Of a DNA stretch of 64,000 nt, positions 5,269-56,353 are shown piece by piece (position 1 is the stretch's first letter; each line of letters starts with the position of its first letter). The position numbers and the translations under genes were made by a program. The stretch spans positions 1,240,001-1,304,000 of the forward strand of contig NZ_CP040504.1 of assembly GCF_005886145.1 (NCBI RefSeq), read 5' to 3'. This DNA comes from Neisseria sp. oral taxon 014 str. F0314 (lineage in GTDB: Bacteria; Pseudomonadota; Gammaproteobacteria; Burkholderiales; Neisseriaceae). The notes beneath the pieces are model-generated. The model was not told the origin of the DNA and did not search any database. It saw nothing but the letters and a program-made list of their open reading frames with translations.

Positions 5269-6065
5269 TGAAAGAGCTGCATAAAACATCGTTTTGGGAG
5301 TCGCTGATCATCCAAAAACGGGTTATCGGCGCTCTTCTGATGAGAGAAATCATTACCCGTTACGGGCGTAACAACATCGGCTTCTTATGGCTGTTTGTCG
5401 AACCCCTATTAATGACGTTGATAATGGTGTTGATGTGGAAATTTTTTAAGGTCAACAATATATCCACTTTAAATATTGTTGCCTTTACCATTACGGGTTA
5501 TCCGATGATGATGATGTGGCGTAACGCGTCTAACCGTGCCATCGGATCCATCTCGGCCAATATGAGTCTGCTTTACCACCGGAATGTCCGTGTATTGGAT
5601 ACGATTTTTGCGCGTATGCTATTGGAAATCGCGGGAGCGACCATTGCTCAGATTGCCATTATGAGCGTTTTGATTGCCGTTCGCTGGATTGAGATGCCGG
5701 CTGATATTTTTTATATGCTGTTGGCCTGGTTGTTGATGGCAATGTTTGCTATAGGATTAGGCCTGATTATCTGCTCGGTTGCATTTCATTTTGAGCCTTT
5801 CGGCAAAGTATGGGGCACAATCAGTTTTGTCATGATGCCGTTATCAGGCGTATTTTTCTTTGTTCATAATCTGCCACAGCAGTTGCAGCATTATGTGTTG
5901 ATGCTCCCTATGGTTCACGGTACAGAAATGTTCCGTGCAGGCTATTTCGGCAACAGTGTAACAACATACGGGAATCCGTGGTTTATTTTGTTGTGCAATT
6001 TAGTTTTGCTGCTACTGGGATTGGCTATGGTTACCAAGTTCAGCAAGGGGGTCGAACCGCAATGA
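5268..6065 (+). CDS. ctrC: Capsule ABC transporter permease CtrC
   Basis: CtrC is the ABC-2 type permease that carries lipid-anchored capsular polysaccharide across the inner membrane, with CtrD as its ATPase (KpsM/BexB family). The 265-residue protein has about six hydrophobic segments and the family landmark [20 protein letters not shown] near the N-terminus. It overlaps ctrB at the start and ctrD at the end by a few bases, which keeps the two transporter halves in stoichiometric expression. Nothing is unusual in length or sequence. Confidence 0.95.
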
Positions 6066-39621: not shown

Positions 39622-40160
39622 AAAGGTCGTCTGAAAAGCAAAAAGCAACCTGCACAACCTATTTTCCTTGCAAAACCCTTCATCCCAACAGCCGCCCCGT
39701 CCTCTCTCCCGTGGGAGAGAGCTAGAGAGAGGGCAACAAGCCGCAAGGCTTGTATTTGGGGCGGTTGGGGGTATTGTGAAAGGTTGCCGAAATTCGGGGA
39801 ATGCCCTCTCCCCAACCCTCCCCCACGGGGGAGGGAGCAGGTTGCAGCGGATTTGGCGATTTTGGCGATTTGAAAGGCAACTTGGGTTTACAACCGTTGA
39901 TGCAGGTCGTCTGAAAAGCAAAAAAGCAGCCAATACAACCTGTTTTCTTGCAGAACCCTTCATCCCAACAGCCACTCCGTCCTCTCTCCCGTGGGAGAGA
40001 GCTAGAGAGAGGGCAACAAGCCGCAAGGCTTGTATTTGGGGAAGTTAGAGTGTTGGGAAAGATTGCCGTAATTCGGAGAATGCCCTCTCCCCAGCCCTCC
40101 CCCACAGGGGAGGGAGCGGGTTACAGCGGATTCAAGCGTTGCAGGTCGTCTGAAAAAGAA
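39622..40160. repeat. Tandem duplicated non-coding module bounded by AG-mucDUS
   Basis: Two similar copies (about 39622-39890 and 39902-40142) each start with AGGTCGTCTGAAAAGCAAAA, continue through CTTCATCCCAACAGCC and the palindrome-rich CTCTCCCGTGGGAGAGAGCT, then GCCGCAAGGCTTGTATTTGG, and end with CTCCCCCAC-GGGGAGGGAG and CAGCGGATT. A third mucDUS at 40143 closes the array. Copies diverge by scattered substitutions and a gap. No plausible coding frame is kept between copies, so it is probably a repeat family that grows with the carA-carB spacer. Confidence 0.75.
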
Positions 40161-40399: not shown

Positions 40400-41398
40400 A
40401 TGATAAGACTAGATTCGGATTATAAATGGTGGGAAAAGACCGTTGAATATTTATTTGTTATTCAATATTTATCTATGATCTATCCGGATAATTTCTTAAA
40501 AATCGCCCCCTTAGATGGAGACCATGAACAAGCAGGTGATGTAATTCTATGCAATCCCAATAATAAGTATTATCTAATTGAATTTAAAAAAAGATCTAGC
40601 TCTCAATATGATGAATTTATAAAATTTTTAGATGTAAAATCTAAAAATTTTAAATTTCTAAAAGAGAAGTGTTCAGAAAGTGAGATAGCAAAATATCTAT
40701 CAGAAGCCCTTTCAAATGAAAATTTTGATTTTTCAAAATTAGCTAAAATTAAAATAGATCCACAATATAAAATTAAAAACTTGCAAGAATTGAAAGATGC
40801 AAAATATCATTTTGTTATATTTGCTAAACGAGAACGAGACGAACTATTTTTATATGCGCAACAATATAAAGATTATCTGAAAAAATTAGAAAATTCTATA
40901 CCGCAAACTAACTTCAAAAAAGAGTTTGACGAAAATGCTGCAAGTAGGGATGAATTTTTAGCATATGTACATGAATTTGTTTCTTTGAAAAAAGGGAAAG
41001 AACTTGTCATTGTTGATGATGGTAAATCATCATCAGCTTTTGCAAATGTTTTGGCAATAAACAGCGAAGGACAAACATGTACTCTGTTGGATATTATCAA
41101 TAGTAAAACATATCAAAATAAATATCCTCCATTGAATGTGGAAACAATACAGAAGAATTTGGATGGCATAGCAAATGAAATAAATCAACCAGATATTACA
41201 TTGCAGAGAGTAGAAGAATTAAATGAAATACTTGGAGAGTTTCGCGAATATTTGAATGATGCACAAGAAGATTTTGAAAATACACAAAACATCATTACCG
41301 AAATTGAACAATCGATTGATAGTTTAGAAAGAAATCTGGACAAATTAAAAATTGAATTAACACCAAAAGAAACTAATTCTGTTAAATTTAAAATATAA
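40400..41398 (+). CDS. PD-(D/E)xK-like protein of unknown function in the carA-carB insert
   Basis: The 332-residue, strongly AT-rich gene has AGGAAAGG before ATG 40400. Residues about 8-70 fit a PD-(D/E)xK nuclease core: E in [10 protein letters not shown] in HEQAGDVIL and the ExK pair in YYLIEFKKR. The rest is charged and helical, and the C-terminus (about 255-325) is a predicted coiled coil ([20 protein letters not shown]). No family is recognised. Base composition unlike carA/carB points to transfer. A defence or restriction role is plausible but inferred. It ends 14 bases before carB. Confidence 0.7.
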
Positions 41399-41412: not shown

Positions 41413-44628
<3,216 letters not shown>

Positions 44629-44634
44629 GGCGTT

Positions 44635-44768
44635 TCAGGCTGCCTGAAAAATATAGTGGGCTAAATATCGGGAATGAAGGTCGTTGGATGTCCTATTTTC
44701 ATTGACCATCAAAAACAGCCTGCACAAAGGCCGTCTGAAAAACAGGTTTCATCTTTTCAGACGGCCTT
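44635..44768. terminator. carB downstream terminators in two DUS dialects
   Basis: TTCAGGCTGCCTGAA at 44635-44649 is a near-palindrome that contains AGGCTGCCTGAA. A standard AG-DUS hairpin (AAGGCCGTCTGAAAA and complement) follows at 44727-44768, just before the restriction gene. Confidence 0.75.
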
Positions 44769-44804
44769 CCCACAAACCGAACAACCGATTGCAAAGGATT
44801 ATCC

Positions 44805-47800
44805 ATGTCGGCATTGCAAACACTTTTGGCATCTTTCCGCGAACAAACACAAAATGCCGCCTACCAAGGCCGCCGCGACCAAGGCACGGCTTTTGAGCAT
44901 CTGATGGTTGCCTATTTCCAAACCGAACCCTGCTATAAAGAGCTGTATCAAAACGTACAGCCCTACGGTACATGGGCAGCGAAGCATTTAAATGAATTGG
45001 ATTTAGGCGGTGCAACCGATGCTGGCATCGACTTGGTCGCTACCACTTTCACAGGCGAACACCATGCTATCCAATGCAAAAACTACGCACCTGACCACAC
45101 ACTGCAAAAGAAAGACATCGACAGCTTCTTTACCGCGTCGGGTAAAACGCACTTCAGCAACCGCATTATCGTTTCCACCACCGACAAATGGTCGAAAAAC
45201 GCCGAAGATGCACTGGAAGGGCAGCATATTCCTGTTTCCAAAATCACCCTGTCCGATTTGGAAAACAGCGTTATCGACTGGACGCAATACCACATCGGCG
45301 AACCGCCGAAACGCAAAAACAGAAAATCACTCCGCCCTCATCAGCAATCAGCGCTAACCGCCGTGTCAAACGGCTTCGCACGCGGCGAAACGCGCGGCAA
45401 GCTGATTATGGCCTGCGGAACGGGTAAAACGTTCACTTCGCTGCGGATTGCTGAGCATTTGGCCGGCAAGGGTAAGCGCGTACTGTTTCTCGTCCCCAGC
45501 CTGTCGCTGCTTTCCCAAACCCTTCGAGAATGGACGCAGGATGCTGATTTGCCGCTGCGCAATTTCGCCGTCTGCTCCGATAGCGAAGTCGGCAAATATA
45601 AAAAAGACGACGACCGCACCTTCGTCCGCCCCAGTGACTTGAACTACCCTGCCACCACCAACGCCAAAAGCCTGTATCAGGCGGCCAGCGTGCTGCATGA
45701 TGCAGAGCACATGACCGTCGTCTACTCCACCTACCACTCCATCGATGTCATTCATCAGGCGCAGGCACAATACGGGCTGCCTGAATTCGACCTGATTATT
45801 TGTGATGAGGCGCACCGCACCACCGGTGCAACGTTTGACGGCGACGACGAATCCGCCTTTGTCCGTGTACACGATGCCGGTTACATCAAAGGCGCAAAAC
45901 GGTTGTATATGACTGCTACTCCGCGCATCTATGTAGATGACGCAAAAGCAGCCGACGGCGTATCCGTTTATTCGATGGATGACGAAACCCACTACGGCAA
46001 AGAATTTTTCGTCCTCACTTTCTCACAAGCCGTATCACAAAAATTGCTGGTGGATTATAAAGTGATTGTTTTAGCAATCGACCAGGCGCATGTCGAGCGC
46101 AGATTGCAGGAATTGCTGCGCGATGATACGGGCAGCGAATTGAAAATAGACGATGCCGCCAAAATCGTCGGTTGTTGGAAAGCCCTGTCTAAATATGGTT
46201 TGAGTGGCGAAGAAGGCGCACTGTACAACCCCATGCGCCGAGCCGTCGCCTTCTGTCAGGTGATTGAGAAAGAATACAAAGGCAGCCGACACAAAGTCAG
46301 CTCCAAACTGATTGCCGATGAATTTTCCAAAGTCGTCAAGAAATACCAGCAGAAAGAAACGGAAGAATGGTTGAAAGATAATCCCGACCTTCTGACGCCG
46401 CCATCCCTAGCGATGATTTGCGAAGCCAAACATGTAGACGGCGGTATGAACGCGGGCGAAAAAGAAAGCAGGCTGCAATGGCTCAAAGCCGACATTCCCG
46501 ACAACACCTGCCGCATCCTGTCCAACGTCCGCTGCCTGTCCGAGGGCGTGGACGTACCTGCGCTGGATGCCGTGCTGTTCCTGACCCCGCGCAATTCCAA
46601 GGTTGATGTCGTTCAGTCGGTCGGCCGCGTCATGCGCCGTGCCGAAGGTAAAAAGCAGGGCTACGTTATCCTGCCTGTCGTGATTCCGCCCGGCATTGAA
46701 CCGGAAGCCGCGCTGGACAAAAACGAAAATTACAAAGTCGTATGGGACGTACTCAATGCCTTGCGTTCACACGACGACCGCTTCGATGCGATGATTAACA
46801 AATTGGAATTCAACGGAAAAGACACCGACAAACTGGAAATTGTCGCCATAACCGGACAGAATTTCAGACAAATGGAAGTGGTTTCCAAAGTTGGAAAAAT
46901 CACACCCAAAGCCAAGCGCAACAAACAAGACCAAGTTTTACGCGAAGCAAGAAACAGCTACAACATCGGGCAATCCGAAAAACCGCATCCGATACAAGAA
47001 ACCCTGCCGTTTGAAACAGGGGCAATCGAACGCGCCCTCTACGCCAAAATCGTCAAAAAATGCGGCAACCGCCACCATTGGGAAGACTGGGCGGGCGACA
47101 TCGCCAAAATCGCCCGCACCCATATTGACAGCATCAACGCTATTTTGGAAAACCCTGCCAACGAAGCCGAATGCACTGCCTTCGAAGCCTTTGCTGCCGA
47201 ACTGCGCGATGACCTCAATAACGCCGTTAGCGACGAAGAAATCGTCGAAATGCTTGCCCAGCATCTCATTACCAAGCCCGTGTTCGACGCACTGTTTTCC
47301 GATTACAGCTTCGCCGAACACAACCCCATGAGCCGCGCCATGCAGAAAGTGCTGGATTTATTGCAGCAGAAAAACCTCCACAAAGAGCGCAATACCCTGC
47401 AATCCTTCTACGACTCCGTCCACCTGCGTGCCAGCGGCATCGAAACCGCCGAAGGCAAACAAAAAATCGTCGTGGAACTCTACGACAAATTCTTCCGCAA
47501 CGCCTTCCCGCGCATGACAGAACGGCTCGGCATCGTTTACACGCCCGTCGAAGTCGTCGATTTCATCATCAAAAGCGTGGAAGACGTCTTACAGCACGAA
47601 TTCAAAAGCAGCCTGCAAGACAAAGGCGTGCATATCCTCGACCCCTTCACCGGCACAGGCACCTTCATCACCCGCCTGCTGCAAAGCGGCATCATCCCGC
47701 GCGACAGGCTGCCTGAAAAATACAAAAACGAAATCCACGCCAACGAAATCGTCCTGCTCGCCTACTACATCGCCACCATCAACATCGAATCCGCCTACCA

Positions 47801-49709
47801 CGGCATACTGGCAGGCAACATTGACGGCAATGTTTCAGACGACGTCCCCTACGTTCCCTTTGAAGGCATCTGCCTGACTGATACCTTCCAAATGTACGAG
47901 AAAGGCGACATGCTGGACGAAATGCTGGTGGACAACAGCGCACGCCGCAAACGGCAGAAAGCCTTGGATATCCGTGTCATTATCGGAAATCCGCCCTATT
48001 CCGCAGGACAGGAATCCGCCAACGACAACAACGCCAACATCGAATACCCCCATCTTGATGCACGCATCCGCCAAACCTATGCCGAACACTCCACTGCCAC
48101 ATTAAAAAATGCCCTGTATGACAGCTACATCCGCGCCATTCGCTGGGCATCTGACCGCATCGGGCAGCAGGGCGTTATTGGCTTCGTAACCAATGCAGGC
48201 TGGGTAGAAGCCAATACCGCAGACGGATTGCGCAAATGTTTGGCAGAGGAATTTTCCAGCCTGTATATCTTCCACCTGCGCGGCAACCAACGCACATCAG
48301 GCGAACGTTCTCGCAAAGAGGGCGGCAAAATTTTCGGCTCAGGCAGCCGTGCGCCGATTGCTATTTCCATACTTGTCAAAAACCCTCAGGCCGAAAAACG
48401 GGGACAGATTTACTTCCACGACATCGGCGACTACCTGACCCGCGAACAGAAGCTGGAAACCATCGCCGAACTCGGAAGCATCGGCGGCATTACCGAACAG
48501 CAGGGCTGGCAGGAAATCGTCCCTGACGAATTTAACGACTGGCTAAACCAACGCGACCCTAATTTTGATAGCTATATCAGTTTAGGAAATAAGAAAAGCA
48601 AGGATGAAATCGCTGTTTTTGAAAACTATTCAAGAGGTATTGCAACAAGCCGAGATGTTTGGTGCTACAACTTTTCAGGCAGCCTTCTGCGTCAAAATAT
48701 GCAGAATATGATTGGCTTTTACAACAGTGAAGTGGCACGTTTTCAGGCAGCCTGCAAAGGGCTACCTGAAAACCAACGACCTGATGTGAATAATTTTCTT
48801 AACTATGATGACACAAAAATGAGTTGGGATTTCGCTCAGAAAAACGACTTGCCGAAAGGAAAAACTTACACATTTACAGATAATTCTATTCAAGCGGCTC
48901 TTTATCGACCATTTACAAAAGAATGGATTTATTGCAATCGAGAGGTTAATAACCGTGTTTATCAAATGCCAAAGATTTTTCCAAATCAACATACCGTTAA
49001 TCAGGTCATTTCCGTAACAGGACGCGGTTCAACCAAAGAATTTTCCGCCCTAATCAGCAGTGAAATCCCCGATTTAGAGATGATTTCCAAAGGGCAGTGC
49101 TTCCCATCGGATGTATATGAATTTTCAGACGGCGTAGAAACAGCCGAACGAACGAACGAACGAACGAACGAACGAACGAACGAACGAACGAACGAACGAA
49201 CGAACGAACGAACGAACGAACGAACGAACGAACGAACGAACGAACGAACGAACGAACGAACGAACGAACGAACGAACGAACGAACGAACGAACGAACGAA
49301 CGAACGAACGAACGAACGAACGAACGAACGAACGAACGAACGAACGAACGAACGAACGAACGAACGAACGAACGAACGAACGAACGAACGAACGAACGAA
49401 CGAACGAACGAACGAAATTATACACCACGAAGTACCGTCCAATATCGCCATCTGCCTCACCACGACCGGCGGCAAGGGCTTCTCTGTGCTTATCACCGAC
49501 CAAATCCCCGATTTACACCTTATCGGCGACGCACAGTGCTTCCCGATGTTCCTCTACGAGACGGAGTAACCAACATGACGATTTGTATTACAGGCTTGGG
49601 CACGACCAAAGGCTTTTCCGTACTGATGACCAATGCGATACCCGATGTCCAGTTGCAGATGAACGGGCAATGCTTCCCCATGTTCCTCTACGAAACGGAG
49701 GAAGCTTAA
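44805..49709 (+). CDS. Type ISP restriction-modification enzyme (nuclease-helicase-methyltransferase), repeat-tract variable
   Basis: This 1634-residue protein has the domain order of single-polypeptide Type ISP enzymes (LlaGI/LlaBIII type). It starts with an Mrr-like nuclease (AGIDLVA at 73-79, AIQCKNY at 88-94), then a superfamily 2 helicase (ACGTGKTFTS about 203, ICDEAHRTTG about 332, QSVGRVMRRAEG about 606). A coupler is followed by an adenine methyltransferase (motif I DPFTGTGTFI about 945, NPPYSAGQ about 1062) and the start of the specificity region. From about residue 1447, 68 CGAA units encode repeated RTNE. In the present frame the end reads through to TAA at 49707-49709, overlapping the next ATG. 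The rest of the specificity domain is encoded by the next gene. It should cut unmodified DNA by ATP-driven translocation, with specificity or activity switched by repeat number. Confidence 0.88.
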   Translation: MSALQTLLASFREQTQNAAYQGRRDQGTAFEHLMVAYFQTEPCYKELYQNVQPYGTWAAKHLNELDLGGATDAGIDLVATTFTGEHHAIQCKNYAPDHTLQKKDIDSFFTASGKTHFSNRIIVSTTDKWSKNAEDALEGQHIPVSKITLSDLENSVIDWTQYHIGEPPKRKNRKSLRPHQQSALTAVSNGFARGETRGKLIMACGTGKTFTSLRIAEHLAGKGKRVLFLVPSLSLLSQTLREWTQDADLPLRNFAVCSDSEVGKYKKDDDRTFVRPSDLNYPATTNAKSLYQAASVLHDAEHMTVVYSTYHSIDVIHQAQAQYGLPEFDLIICDEAHRTTGATFDGDDESAFVRVHDAGYIKGAKRLYMTATPRIYVDDAKAADGVSVYSMDDETHYGKEFFVLTFSQAVSQKLLVDYKVIVLAIDQAHVERRLQELLRDDTGSELKIDDAAKIVGCWKALSKYGLSGEEGALYNPMRRAVAFCQVIEKEYKGSRHKVSSKLIADEFSKVVKKYQQKETEEWLKDNPDLLTPPSLAMICEAKHVDGGMNAGEKESRLQWLKADIPDNTCRILSNVRCLSEGVDVPALDAVLFLTPRNSKVDVVQSVGRVMRRAEGKKQGYVILPVVIPPGIEPEAALDKNENYKVVWDVLNALRSHDDRFDAMINKLEFNGKDTDKLEIVAITGQNFRQMEVVSKVGKITPKAKRNKQDQVLREARNSYNIGQSEKPHPIQETLPFETGAIERALYAKIVKKCGNRHHWEDWAGDIAKIARTHIDSINAILENPANEAECTAFEAFAAELRDDLNNAVSDEEIVEMLAQHLITKPVFDALFSDYSFAEHNPMSRAMQKVLDLLQQKNLHKERNTLQSFYDSVHLRASGIETAEGKQKIVVELYDKFFRNAFPRMTERLGIVYTPVEVVDFIIKSVEDVLQHEFKSSLQDKGVHILDPFTGTGTFITRLLQSGIIPRDRLPEKYKNEIHANEIVLLAYYIATINIESAYHGILAGNIDGNVSDDVPYVPFEGICLTDTFQMYEKGDMLDEMLVDNSARRKRQKALDIRVIIGNPPYSAGQESANDNNANIEYPHLDARIRQTYAEHSTATLKNALYDSYIRAIRWASDRIGQQGVIGFVTNAGWVEANTADGLRKCLAEEFSSLYIFHLRGNQRTSGERSRKEGGKIFGSGSRAPIAISILVKNPQAEKRGQIYFHDIGDYLTREQKLETIAELGSIGGITEQQGWQEIVPDEFNDWLNQRDPNFDSYISLGNKKSKDEIAVFENYSRGIATSRDVWCYNFSGSLLRQNMQNMIGFYNSEVARFQAACKGLPENQRPDVNNFLNYDDTKMSWDFAQKNDLPKGKTYTFTDNSIQAALYRPFTKEWIYCNREVNNRVYQMPKIFPNQHTVNQVISVTGRGSTKEFSALISSEIPDLEMISKGQCFPSDVYEFSDGVETAERTNERTNERTNERTNERTNERTNERTNERTNERTNERTNERTNERTNERTNERTNERTNERTNERTNERTNERTNERTNERTNERTNERNYTPRSTVQYRHLPHHDRRQGLLCAYHRPNPRFTPYRRRTVLPDVPLRDGVTNMTICITGLGTTKGFSVLMTNAIPDVQLQMNGQCFPMFLYETEEA
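48990..49709 (+). repeat. Three divergent copies of a C-terminal protein module around the CGAA tract
   Basis: Three stretches encode the same module of about 42 residues: copy 1 VISVTGRGSTKEFSALIS...GQCFPSDVYEF (about 48990-49130), copy 2 AICLTTTGGKGFSVLIT...AQCFPMFLYETE then stop (49444-49569) and copy 3 MTICITGLGTTKGFSVLMT...GQCFPMFLYETEEA then stop (49575-49709). Copies 1 and 3 are in frame 0 and copy 2 in frame +1. The CGAA tract lies between copies 1 and 2. Copy 3 has its own ATG. Confidence 0.85.
49145..49416 (+). repeat. Tetranucleotide tract (CGAA)68
   Basis: A perfect run of 272 bases equals 68 CGAA units. Because 4 is not a multiple of 3, each gain or loss of one unit changes the downstream frame. 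Slipped-strand mispairing of such tracts is the standard phase-variation mechanism in Neisseria. The run encodes Arg-Thr-Asn-Glu repeats in every frame, so no frame is closed inside it. An assembly could have the count wrong. Confidence 0.97.
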
Positions 49710-50443
49710 TGGAAAATCAAGACCTGTTCGCTGCTGAAATGCCGTCTGAAAAGCAGCCAGCACAGAAAAAGCTCGTCCGCCGCTCCGCCATCACCGACGA
49801 TGCGCTGGCACATTTCCGCGAGCCGTATTCCGCCACCGATGCCGCCCGAATCGGCAAAGAAGACATCTTCTATTACATCTACGGTCTGCTGCACAGCGAA
49901 GAATACCGCGAACGTTACGCCGACAATTTAAGCAAACAGCTCCCGCGCATCCCGCGCATGAAAAACTACGCCGATTTTTCTGCATTCAGCAGGGCGGGAC
50001 GCGATTTGGCGGCACTGCACCTGAACTACGAAACCGTACCGATGTATCAGGGTGTGAAATTTTCAGGCAGCCTGCAAGGTTTGAAACTTGCTCCGCAGCA
50101 AATCATCGGCGGCGCAGACGAAGACTTCCGTGTGGTCAAAATGAAATTTGCCAAAAAAGACGATAAAACCAAAATCGTCTACAACGGCAAAATTACTGTG
50201 GAAAACATTCCCGAAGCCGCCTACGACTACATCGTAAACGGCAAATCCGCTATTGAATGGGTGATGGAACGCCAGGCCGTAACCACCGACAAAAAATCCG
50301 GTATCACCAACGATGCCAACGACTGGGCAGCCGACACCATGCACAACCCGCGCTATCCGCTCGAACTGCTCCTGCGCGTCATCACCGTCAGCTTGGAAAC
50401 GCAGAAAATCGTCTATGCTTTGCCGAAACTGGATATTGTGTGA
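49709..50443 (+). CDS. Type ISP C-terminal specificity domain protein
   Basis: ATG 49709 overlaps the stop of the preceding gene (TAATG) and GGAGG lies just upstream, so translation is probably coupled. The 244-residue product matches the C-terminal part of Type ISP enzymes, which recognises the DNA target: KEDIFYYIYGLLHSEEYRERYADNL-like block (split here: EDIFYYIYGLLHSEEYRER, then LPRIPRMK), GRDLAALHLNYE and VERQ-like WVMERQAV near the end. In single-chain enzymes this is fused to the methyltransferase part. The frame is open upstream through 49412 into the CGAA tract, so one more repeat unit would make a full-length fusion. A DUS-containing linker (EMPSEKQPAQKK) precedes the domain. Confidence 0.82.
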   Translation: MENQDLFAAEMPSEKQPAQKKLVRRSAITDDALAHFREPYSATDAARIGKEDIFYYIYGLLHSEEYRERYADNLSKQLPRIPRMKNYADFSAFSRAGRDLAALHLNYETVPMYQGVKFSGSLQGLKLAPQQIIGGADEDFRVVKMKFAKKDDKTKIVYNGKITVENIPEAAYDYIVNGKSAIEWVMERQAVTTDKKSGITNDANDWAADTMHNPRYPLELLLRVITVSLETQKIVYALPKLDIV

Positions 50444-50510
50444 TTTAAAACCCAAAGGCCGTCTGAAAACCGTCAGACCCGCTTTCAGATGGCCTTTGAA
50501 TACAGATCCG

Positions 50511-51143
50511 TCAGTCCGTCCGGCCAGTACCGTTACCGTGTGAAACCATAGAAGCAGCGAGTGGTTTCCCAACTGTTTTTTCCTGCGATTTATTCAACGC
50601 ATACCAATCAATCTCCCGTGTGTAATACATCACCGCGAACAGCGCTGCAAACAGCAGGCAAGAGCCGGCCAGCAGGTTGTATTGCTGCATTTTTATCAGC
50701 ACAAACATCGTACCGTATGCCGCAACAAGCAGTGCCGTCATCATATGCACACCGCGCGTGGTGGCCAGCACGAAGCGCAGATACCAAAACAGTAAGCCGA
50801 TACACGCCGCCGCACCGATGGTATAAGCGGCAGTAAAGCCGACATGTTCCGCCAGCGAGAGCAACAGCAGGTAGAAAATCGACAACGCCGCGCCTACCAG
50901 CAGATACTGCACCGGATGAATACGCCATTCCTGCAGGATTTCGCTCAAAAAGAACGAAGAAAACACCAACACCACCAGCACCATACCGTATTTCACGCTG
51001 CGGACGACCATGTGGTAGCCCTCCGCCCCCAGTAGTATGCTGGACTGGTATTCGCTCCGCTGTTCGGCCAGCCCGTAAATCCACAGCAATACCACGGCAA
51101 AGGCGATACACAGGCCGATTACGCTCCATAATTTTTTCGTCAT
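50511..51143 (-). CDS. creD: CreD-like inner membrane protein lacking the periplasmic domain
   Basis: The start is ATG 51143, with GGAG eight bases upstream; an ATG at 51155 is weaker. The 210-residue product matches CreD only in its first membrane helix (KLWSVIGLCIAFAVVLLWIYG) and the C-terminal multi-helix part (FSSFFLSEIL, WRIHPVQYLLVGAALSIFYL, LAEHVGFTAAYTI, and YYTREIDWY at the end). CreD is normally about 450 residues with a large periplasmic domain between these parts; here only about 20 residues join them. It is divergent from creB, which regulates creD in enteric bacteria. Membrane targeting is clear; function is uncertain. Confidence 0.85.
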   Translation of the reverse strand: MTKKLWSVIGLCIAFAVVLLWIYGLAEQRSEYQSSILLGAEGYHMVVRSVKYGMVLVVLVFSSFFLSEILQEWRIHPVQYLLVGAALSIFYLLLLSLAEHVGFTAAYTIGAAACIGLLFWYLRFVLATTRGVHMMTALLVAAYGTMFVLIKMQQYNLLAGSCLLFAALFAVMYYTREIDWYALNKSQEKTVGKPLAASMVSHGNGTGRTD

Positions 51144-54392: not shown

Positions 54393-55712
54393 ATGTTAAT
54401 TCAATTTATCTCAGAAAATTTTCGCTCCCTTAAAAAGGAGCAAACCCTGTCCCTAGTACGCAGCTCAGGAAATGAAATGCCTGACAATTTTTTCCAGACT
54501 ACCGCTGCGGCAACCCCAGAATTATTAAAATCTGCGGTCATTTATGGTGCTAATGCTTCTGGTAAATCCAATGTTATTAAGGCATTGGGATCTATGCTTC
54601 ATATTATTCAAAATTCGTTTAGTAAAAAGATAAATAGACCCATTGAAACGGAAAGTTTTTTATTTGATGCGCTTTCCCGTAATGAACCGACACTTTATGA
54701 TATTTCTATTATTGTTCCACTGACAAATGAAGAAGGTAGTTTGCAAGAAACTCGGGTAGATTACGGATTCGTTGCCGATAAAAATATGGTTTATGAAGAA
54801 TGGTTGAGCGTTTACCCCAAAGGAAAAGAGCAGAACTGGTTTCATCGTGAATACAAGCAAGAAAAATCTGACTACGATTGGAAAATGTCCACCTACTTCA
54901 AAGGAGAAAGAGAAAGCTGGAAAAATCAAACCCGTCCGGACCAGTTGTTTTTTTCTAGCGCAGTTCATTTGAATAGTGAACAATTAAAACCGATTTATGA
55001 ATCACTTTCAGAAGAAATATTAATAGTTCGTACTGATAGAATTAGCAATGAACTATCTAAATCATTATGCAAAAATTCAGATAAAGAAAAAACTATTTTA
55101 ATTTCTCTGCTTAAATCTGCAGGTATTGAAGTTGATGATATTACTTTTAGAAAACCTAAAATTCGACATGAAGATTTTCCAAAGGAACTCCCTGAGATTG
55201 TAAAAGATAAAATTCTTAAAGAAATAGAAGAGGCAATTGTTGCCAAAACTGAAACATTCTTTGTATATTTTGATGGTACTGACAATCCACCAGAAATTCC
55301 TTTACATGAAGAATCAGACGGGACTCAAAAATTATTTGAATTTGCCGGACTGATTTTAGCTGTTTTACATAATGGAAATGTTTTAATAATTGATGAATTA
55401 AATAAAAGTCTACATCCTGATTTAGTACGTTTCTTGGTTAAGTTATTCAACTCTCCACTCAATAAGAAAAATGCTCAGTTAATTTTTACAACGCATGAAA
55501 CTTCTGTATTAAGAAAAGATTTGCTGCGTCGTGATCAAATTTGGTTTTGTGAAAAAGAGGAGGATAGAGGAACTCATTTATATCCATTAACCGACTTTAA
55601 GCCCCATATTAACCGCGAAGATATTGAAGAATATTACCTTCATGGTCGTTATGGTGCAAAACCTATGATTAGTAATTTTGAATTTCCCAAGGATTTTTGG
55701 GAGAGTGAGTAA
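54393..55712 (+). CDS. AAA-family ATPase of an AbiL/RloAB-type defence pair
   Basis: The 439-residue protein is an AAA15/RloA-like ATPase: N-terminal MLIQFISENFRSLKKEQTL, Walker A YGANASGKSN (about residues 51-60), signature and Walker B region NVLIIDELNKSLHPDL (about 329-344) and FTTHETSVL. It is AT-rich compared with its neighbours and two bases separate it from the RloB gene. In Lactococcus AbiL and related systems, this ATPase with a Toprim-like partner aborts phage infection. Defence is inferred from family and pairing. Confidence 0.85.
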   Translation: MLIQFISENFRSLKKEQTLSLVRSSGNEMPDNFFQTTAAATPELLKSAVIYGANASGKSNVIKALGSMLHIIQNSFSKKINRPIETESFLFDALSRNEPTLYDISIIVPLTNEEGSLQETRVDYGFVADKNMVYEEWLSVYPKGKEQNWFHREYKQEKSDYDWKMSTYFKGERESWKNQTRPDQLFFSSAVHLNSEQLKPIYESLSEEILIVRTDRISNELSKSLCKNSDKEKTILISLLKSAGIEVDDITFRKPKIRHEDFPKELPEIVKDKILKEIEEAIVAKTETFFVYFDGTDNPPEIPLHEESDGTQKLFEFAGLILAVLHNGNVLIIDELNKSLHPDLVRFLVKLFNSPLNKKNAQLIFTTHETSVLRKDLLRRDQIWFCEKEEDRGTHLYPLTDFKPHINREDIEEYYLHGRYGAKPMISNFEFPKDFWESE

Positions 55713-55714
55713 TC

Positions 55715-56353
55715 ATGTCAAGACGTAAAAACCGTAGTTTGGAGCGTGAAGAACCAAAAAAGGAAGCCTATGACTTGGTTTTAATTGTTTGCGAAGGAGA
55801 AAAGACAGAAAAGTTTTATTTTCGCAGCCTGATTAAGTTTGAAAAGTTATCATCAGTAAACATTAAGATTATTTCAGGAACGGGGTCAGACCCAGTTTCA
55901 GTAATAAAAACTGCCCTAAAGGAAGTAGAGGATCAAAAGGAATATCTGCCTTTTAATAAGGTTTATTGTGTAGTAGATAGGGATGAACATAAGAATTTCT
56001 CTAATGCTGTGAACATGATTAAAGATAAGAATCTGGAACTTATTATTTCTTATCCCAGTTTCGAATATTGGTATTTGTGCCATTTCAAATATTCTCGGGC
56101 TCCAATAACACGAAGTGGTACAAGAAGTTCGGGGGATAACTGTGTTGCTACTTTGAACGCTGAATGGAAAAAGGTATTTGGCAATGAGTATGAAAAAAAC
56201 ACAGAAAATCTATATGAAATTTTACATGATAAGCTAGAAATAGCGTTAAGCAATGCCGCAAAATCGTTGAAGGCTGCTGAAAGTGAGGAGGAATCAAATC
56301 CTTCTACAAAAGTCCACATATTGGTAGATTATTTAAGAAAACTTAAGATTTGA
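55715..56353 (+). CDS. rloB: RloB-family Toprim-like protein (defence pair partner)
   Basis: The 212-residue protein starts with a basic stretch (MSRRKNRSLERE) and has the RloB core LIVCEGEKTEKFYF (Glu of the Toprim-like site, about residues 25-38), YCVVDRDEH (DxD, about 85-93) and SYPSFEYWYLCHF. These acidic residues suit a metal-dependent nuclease. It follows the AAA ATPase after two bases, so the pair is co-expressed and probably forms one toxin/effector complex. It shares the low GC of its partner. Confidence 0.85.
   Translation: MSRRKNRSLEREEPKKEAYDLVLIVCEGEKTEKFYFRSLIKFEKLSSVNIKIISGTGSDPVSVIKTALKEVEDQKEYLPFNKVYCVVDRDEHKNFSNAVNMIKDKNLELIISYPSFEYWYLCHFKYSRAPITRSGTRSSGDNCVATLNAEWKKVFGNEYEKNTENLYEILHDKLEIALSNAAKSLKAAESEEESNPSTKVHILVDYLRKLKI

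Follow-up and report, generated by a model that had tools for sequence, protein, structure and literature searches.

The window analysed in this work is a stretch of 64,000 nucleotides from Neisseria sp. oral taxon 014 str. F0314 (contig NZ_CP040504.1, positions 1,240,001 to 1,304,000), part of a single-contig genome of 2.50 Mb, and it holds a Type ISP restriction–modification (R-M) locus whose nearest named relatives belong to Neisseria. The target recognition domain (TRD) of this enzyme is interrupted by a CGAA microsatellite, and the TRD segment that carries the base-reading Loop VI occurs in three versions around the tract. The locus is likely to encode a phase-variable Type ISP enzyme, in which slippage of the tract selects the Loop VI module and the fused or split form of the C-terminal guide together. 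Since the base-reading Loop VI is different in every module, the states should differ in their targets, and a change in the tract would probably alter the recognised sequence beyond a simple on/off effect.

Reading frames and alternative modules

All features described here lie on the forward strand. The N-terminal half of the enzyme (N-half, 44805-49144) matches, in order, the Pfam families Mrr_cat_2, ResIII, Helicase_C, ISP_coupler, N6_Mtase, and Type_ISP_C; that is, an Mrr nuclease, a superfamily 2 (SF2) helicase, a coupler, an N6-adenine methyltransferase (MTase), and the first half of the TRD, which is the domain order of Type ISP enzymes, and it also matches LlaBIII (4xqk) and LlaGI (5ffj) by sequence. 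Type_ISP_C is interrupted at profile position 154, with positions 2-154 before the tract and 154-342 in the C-terminal half (C-half, 49709-50443), which contains the remaining TRD core and the guide subdomain and is read either as a separate open reading frame (ORF) or fused to the N-half. In the deposited 68-unit state, the single polypeptide of Type ISP enzymes is not encoded, and it appears only at 66 or 69 units. Judged from its sequence, the locus descends from Type ISP enzymes, its single-chain form depending on the state.

A segment of about 45 residues located before the tract (module m1, 48975-49121) recurs twice 3' of it, one copy per frame, as m2 (49438-49569, stop included) and m3 (49566-49709, stop included). 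The three copies were delimited with a module hidden Markov model, supported by the alignment with LlaGI and LlaBIII for m1, and by the reading frames and substitution rates for m2 and m3. In the alignment, m1 corresponds approximately to residues 1170-1219 of the LlaGI 5ffj chain and 1326-1375 of LlaBIII 4xqk, with LlaGI H1368, G1372, and Q1373 and LlaBIII N1360 as module anchors (PMC4872093; here and below, statements on cited papers refer to the available parts of their text). In these two enzymes, target base +3 is read by Loop VI of the TRD (PMC4872093). All three modules span Loop VI of LlaGI/LlaBIII, m1 also including the Omega hairpin and having Loop V just upstream, and Loop VI is PDLEMISKGQ in m1, PDLHLIGDAQ in m2, and PDVQLQMNGQ in m3, so that the residue aligned to the +3 reader is E, H, and Q, respectively. 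Homology of the m2 residue to LlaGI H1368 weakly suggests a possible G:C reading at +3 in the m2 state.

The tract is a perfect (CGAA)68 array at 49145-49416 (Tandem Repeats Finder, TRF, score 544) that encodes T-N-E-R repeats whatever the frame, and the only other array reported by TRF in the window is one weak 20-nt pair. As in contingency loci, it is a long simple repeat within a reading frame with a unit that is not a multiple of three and, as in C-terminal phase variation, it is a 3'-end repeat that gives a different C-terminus in each frame and allows a fusion. With 65, 68, or 71 units, m2 is crossed out of frame and m3 is read to the TAA at 49707-49709, which overlaps the ATG at 49709 (TAATG). 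With 67 or 70 units, m2 is read and the chain then ends at the TAA at 49567-49569. With 66 or 69 units, the frame is open through to the stop at 50441-50443, including the C-half, and m2 and m3 are out of frame and turn into linker, contributing 97 codons 3' of the tract; the entire linker of the fused form, tract plus m2/m3, comprises about 190 residues, and the equivalent stretch of one relative is disordered in an AlphaFold2 (AF2) prediction. A Shine–Dalgarno-like GGAGG seven bases upstream of the TAATG overlap (49697-49711 for both elements) precedes the C-half. Moreover, the ATG that opens m3 (49575-49577), 6 nt past the m2 stop and with GGAG upstream, is a candidate reinitiation site in the m2 state; all four loci with three modules have an m3-frame ATG at this place, between -3 and +6 nt relative to the end of that stop. 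A promoter and terminator scan of 44550-50700 gave signals no better than shuffled sequence.

The initial annotation had proposed the same three outcomes, namely, a 68-unit frame ending at 49707-49709 over the ATG of the downstream gene, an end at 49569 after module copy 2 with 67 or 70 units, and no stop through 50443 with 69 units, joining the MTase part to the specificity part. Three-frame reading reproduces all of these coordinates, and the Pfam domains bear out its assignment to Type ISP. The toggle between split, truncated, and fused enzymes that it described stands in that repeat number gives three C-termini and one frame restores a single chain, but the supposedly truncated 67/70 state ends instead in a complete alternative module, m2. 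Its view that the locus does more than switch on and off is probably correct, although it had missed that there is one version of the TRD module per frame.

According to the proposed mechanism, slippage of the CGAA tract would shift the frame, and the frame would pick both the module and the attachment of the guide. In the first frame (66/69 units), m1 would be used with the guide fused through the long linker; in the second (67/70 units), m2 would end the MTase chain and the guide would be produced separately; and in the third (65/68/71 units, the deposited genome), m3 would end the chain, the guide being made separately by stop-start coupling. In the split states, m2 or m3 would take the place of m1 in the TRD core, and the separately made guide would join the N-half to assemble a working enzyme. 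Methylation and cleavage would then fall on a different target in each state, with a difference at +3 at least. Where a locus has one extra module, an early stop ends the third frame, which is probably an off state.

Relatives and natural variation of the tract

Relatives were obtained by a search of genome contigs (the best 80 of 173) together with genus, family, class, and other family searches. The starting table of 145 rows (144 loci plus the window) lost nine loci that lacked one half (L044, L049, L059, L074, L080, L108, L110, L122, and L138), among which L074 and L080 terminate in a repeat at a contig end (L108 and L110 are the same genomes again), and a further 19 whose 250 nt before the junction were identical to those of another locus. 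Fifteen of these 19 are duplicate records of the same loci; the others are L128, L136, and L142, matching L060, L025, and L051, and L077, which matches L075 despite a different tract. The compared set thus comprises 117 distinct loci holding both halves. A single module is present in 100 of them and two or three modules in 17. A non-triplet repeat just after m1 occurs in 16 of the 17 multi-module loci, L089 being the exception, and in none of the single-module loci. Eight repeat units were found, up to rotation (CGAA, AACGC, CAGCT, AGCAGCG, AACAG, AGGAC, AGCAC, and AACAGAGC), taking in the contig-end locus L074 and locus L159, described below; they are 4, 5, 7, or 8 nt long, none divisible by three, and one of them occurs only at a contig end. 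The hosts are Neisseria, Perlucidibaca and two genomes of its family search, Xanthomonas, Pseudoxanthomonas, acetic acid bacteria, and the L159 genome. Among viral contigs, none of six relatives has a repeat of 4-8 nt units, and the Komagataeibacter xylinus E25 plasmid (L152) has no such repeat near the junction.

Built from the MTase region (114 rows, without L060, L089, and L144), a quick tree needs seven changes of label for the arrangement, at least four of them forced by well supported branches, and a quick tree of the C-half (113 rows) needs eight, at least six of them forced. Given these repeated label changes on both trees, the arrangement has, as far as the phylogenies indicate, been gained, lost, or transferred several times. 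A held-out sample of 398 genomes of the phylum provided 12 further relatives, of which 11 loci were scanned (three share contig coordinates with loci of an earlier family search) and the twelfth is L095. A repeat is present in one of the 11, L159, as six AGCAC units. This locus has all of the features of the arrangement, with an m1 that ends in EYLY and has the Loop VI LQTDGGA, an m2 that ends in MFLY and has LHMADIEGS, an open fusion frame (null expectation 0.067), and a GGAGG plus ATGA junction.

In 97 of the 100 single-module relatives, the C-half is in frame with the N-half, and in L119, L143, and L144 it is out of frame. The guide of L119 (G592) is out of frame without any repeat, as an ordinary frameshift or a natural split. 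L089 (G016, same genus), for which only the end of the N-half was matched, has two modules, the junction, and an open fusion frame without the repeat, and may be a relic after tract loss. In L013, L062, and L068, from Nitrosomonas and Nitrosovibrio metagenome-assembled genomes, an apparent dispersed genomic repeat (VVPAQAGTQ...RGNDG), read in frame, extends the linker that connects module and guide; these three and L037 were left out when 53 of the 57 fused translations of 780-1100 residues were taken further. L066, from Pseudomonas laurylsulfativorans, carries six copies of TGCTTGGC at 5763-5810, about 190 bases upstream of where the Type ISP match begins, possibly a second, promoter-side type of variation in a single-module relative.

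Natural variation in tract length is found in acetic acid bacteria. L075 (Novacetimonas maltaceti), L077 (Gluconacetobacter entanii), and L151 (Komagataeibacter medellinensis plasmid pGXY010) have 12, 6, and 28 AGGAC units, respectively, between flanks of 100% identity (585 bases upstream and 795 bases downstream), and L075 and L077 share 99.6% identity over 1000 bases upstream. Both 12 and 6 units give the stop frame, and 28 units give the fused form, which is annotated as one gene. L153 (K. oboediens pKOB1), with 49 units, is split and annotated as two overlapping genes; its downstream flank is 97.5% identical, and only 164 of the 585 upstream bases align. Variation in length, as expected of a phase-variable tract, is thus seen in this related system.

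Selection on both readings and alternative explanations

In all 17 multi-module loci, the module adjoining the C-half is one frame step from it, and in the four with three modules (the window, L004, L005, and L133), m2, m3, and the C-half occupy three different frames. The deposited states are fused in seven loci (including L012 and L054, with Ns between m1 and the C-half and an unsure state, and L089, which has no tract), module-ending in five (three in m2 and two in m3, the window being one of the latter), and in the third frame with an early stop in five. When read in their own frame, the extra modules show ratios of nonsynonymous to synonymous substitution rates (dN/dS) of 0.02-0.12 in 18 of 21 chosen pairs, which indicates purifying selection; in the remaining three, dS is saturated (two pairs) or there is a single difference (one pair), and dS is at least 0.8 in 14 of the 21. 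In the fusion frame across the same modules, dN exceeds dS in 21/21, as expected from the module-frame pattern, so that no amino-acid constraint is visible in it. Nevertheless, this frame is free of stops in all 21 extra modules against 0.87 expected with randomly drawn synonymous codons, and an open fusion frame by chance was therefore rejected; the same frame offsets are open in 0/100 and 6/100 single modules and in none of the 17 copies of m1. The one frame left over is without stops in four of the 21 extra modules (0.62 expected), namely the four m2 copies that have to be crossed to reach m3. Because related loci are not independent, these expectations serve as a guide and not as p-values. 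Moreover, a Shine–Dalgarno sequence with an ATG is present at the C-half junction of 17/17 multi-module loci against 2/100 single-module loci. If the fused form alone mattered, the modules and the junction should decay, and if the split form alone mattered, stops should build up in the fusion frame.

These observations bear on plain on/off switching, in which the fused chain alone would be active and m2, m3, and the separate C-half would be inert leftovers of duplication. The in-frame C-half of nearly all single-module relatives agrees with this explanation, as do the complete AF2 model of the fused form and the mostly on/off behaviour of phase-variable R-M genes elsewhere; however, it is unlikely in view of the strong purifying selection on the extra modules, the conserved strong junction, and the Loop VI sequences of extra modules, which differ from m1 and are not recent copies. 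In 17/17 loci, no extra module shares the Loop VI of m1, nor do m2 and m3 share theirs (for L012, the m1 loop was taken from the alignment, as the regular expression misparsed it), and the residue at the +3-reader position is different in 16 of them, L054 having H in both modules with different loop lengths. A recent tandem duplication was rejected on the basis that an extra module shares 36-56% identity with the m1 of its own locus and 50-82% with the nearest single-module enzyme; the latter mostly has an identical or similar Loop VI, with L075, L082, and L115 as exceptions.

The extra module could also dock the separate C-half without reading bases, the tract then toggling fused and split forms of one specificity and affecting, for example, restriction level or stability. 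In keeping with this, the extra module adjoins the C-half, and its last strand is canonical in 21/21 cases, compared with 0/17 for m1 and 82/100 for single modules as counted by regular expression (four further unparsed single-module rows look canonical by eye). Docking leaves unexplained both the different Loop VI sequences and the three-module loci with one module per frame, and it is given slightly less credence than the on/off alternative. Slippage during transcription or translation, which would mix all three products in each cell without genetic switching, would account for every required frame being kept open, but it is very improbable, given that alleles with identical flanks have tracts of different lengths that fall in different frames, the pattern expected of ordinary DNA slippage. 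Assembly error was rejected, as the repeat and the extra modules recur at the same place in 15 further loci.

Several points weigh against selection of base-reading modules by the tract. In the split states, the chain still contains m1, which would have to give way to m2 or m3; the non-canonical last strand of m1 fits this and is suggestive at the sequence level, but LlaGI and LlaBIII are also unusual at that strand (RFTY and KYLY), and the m1 strand may just keep the copies apart at the DNA level. The difference at the +3-reader residue is not significant by itself and is no proof alone, as it is within the range of random pairs of single-module enzymes, 80% of which differ there. The 17 loci are not independent (seven are Neisseria-type), and the open-frame test counts them singly. 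The repeat form was found in none of 12 other loci from 10 genomes of the class sample and is a minority form. Tract variation is seen in acetic acid bacteria and not in the species of the window, which is represented by one genome, and two of the three alleles with identical flanks (L075 and L077) come from draft assemblies, L151 and L153 being from complete plasmids. Finally, a specificity switch in a combined R-M protein carries the risk of cutting unmethylated self sites.

Other features lie in the surroundings of the locus. About 4 kb downstream, two adjoining genes (54393-56353) match AbiLi/AbiLii-like defence models (AAA_21 ATPase and RloB), which makes a defence cluster possible. Upstream, two direct copies of an element lie about 280 bases apart at 39663-40132 (104 nt at 94% and 83 nt at 89% identity), and a 332-aa ORF at 40400-41398, before the gene at 41413, has no Pfam or PADLOC match and only a C-terminal, sub-threshold NCBIfam match to an SMC-related model.

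Comparison with known systems and significance

Phase variation of R-M genes through simple repeats is mostly on/off, and specificity is usually shuffled via recombination or inversion, NgoAV being an exception. In this Type I system of Neisseria gonorrhoeae, two specificity parts are joined or kept apart according to the length of a polyG close to the end of hsdS1, and the target shifts from GCAN8TGC to GCAN7STCA (PMC9577141). The window locus resembles NgoAV in that repeat length joins or parts specificity pieces; however, NgoAV is another enzyme type in which half-subunits are truncated or fused, and the available text reports no homologous modules placed one per frame. LlaGI and LlaBIII share with the window enzyme the domain order, the TRD core with Loop VI, and the guide (PMC4872093), but they are one chain with one module, whereas the TRD core of the window enzyme is cut by a microsatellite and has three alternative modules. 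In Helicobacter canadensis (PMC2823697) and the gonococcus (PMC5320596), 3'-end repeats vary the C-terminus by frame, with occasional fusion to the next gene (HCAN_0660/0661 and NGK_1211/1212, respectively); the parts of these reports that are available describe neither a homologous domain per frame nor an R-M specificity. A polyG in the one-chain R-M gene of Cj0031, a Type IIG enzyme of Campylobacter jejuni, can split it into two frames, without alternative modules being reported in the available text (PMC4889913). The HpyAXVIII Type ISP cluster of H. pylori is, like the window locus, a frame-broken Type ISP gene, but its frameshifts are stated not to arise from sequence repeats (PMC3936762). 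The main text of the Neisseria phasome paper (PMC5953494) contains neither 'CGAA' nor 'helicase', and searches of titles and abstract openings, mainly of openly accessible papers, found no description of a repeat-switched Type ISP enzyme. Precedents thus exist for phase variation of R-M enzymes, for phase variation of C-termini that includes gene fusion, and for repeat-driven specificity change (NgoAV); no earlier description was found of a Type ISP enzyme in which alternative base-reading modules occupy one frame each.

The arrangement can be generalised, with somewhat less assurance than the reading of the window locus itself but still on the favourable side, as a selector in which up to three swappable base-reading modules, each in its own frame and overlapped by an open fusion frame, would be chosen by slippage to give two or three specificities per gene without recombination, with several origins or transfers and different repeat units across alpha-, beta-, and gammaproteobacteria. 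If so, slippage alone would pick among two or three base-reading loops and switch methylation and restriction together, providing a compact route to varied phage defence and epigenetic state. It would also hint, by a natural example, that Loop VI can be swapped as a specificity element of Type ISP enzymes, for which engineered change of specificity was called an unaccomplished challenge (abstract of PMC4872093), and the overlapping readings would represent a clear case of selected dual-coding DNA.
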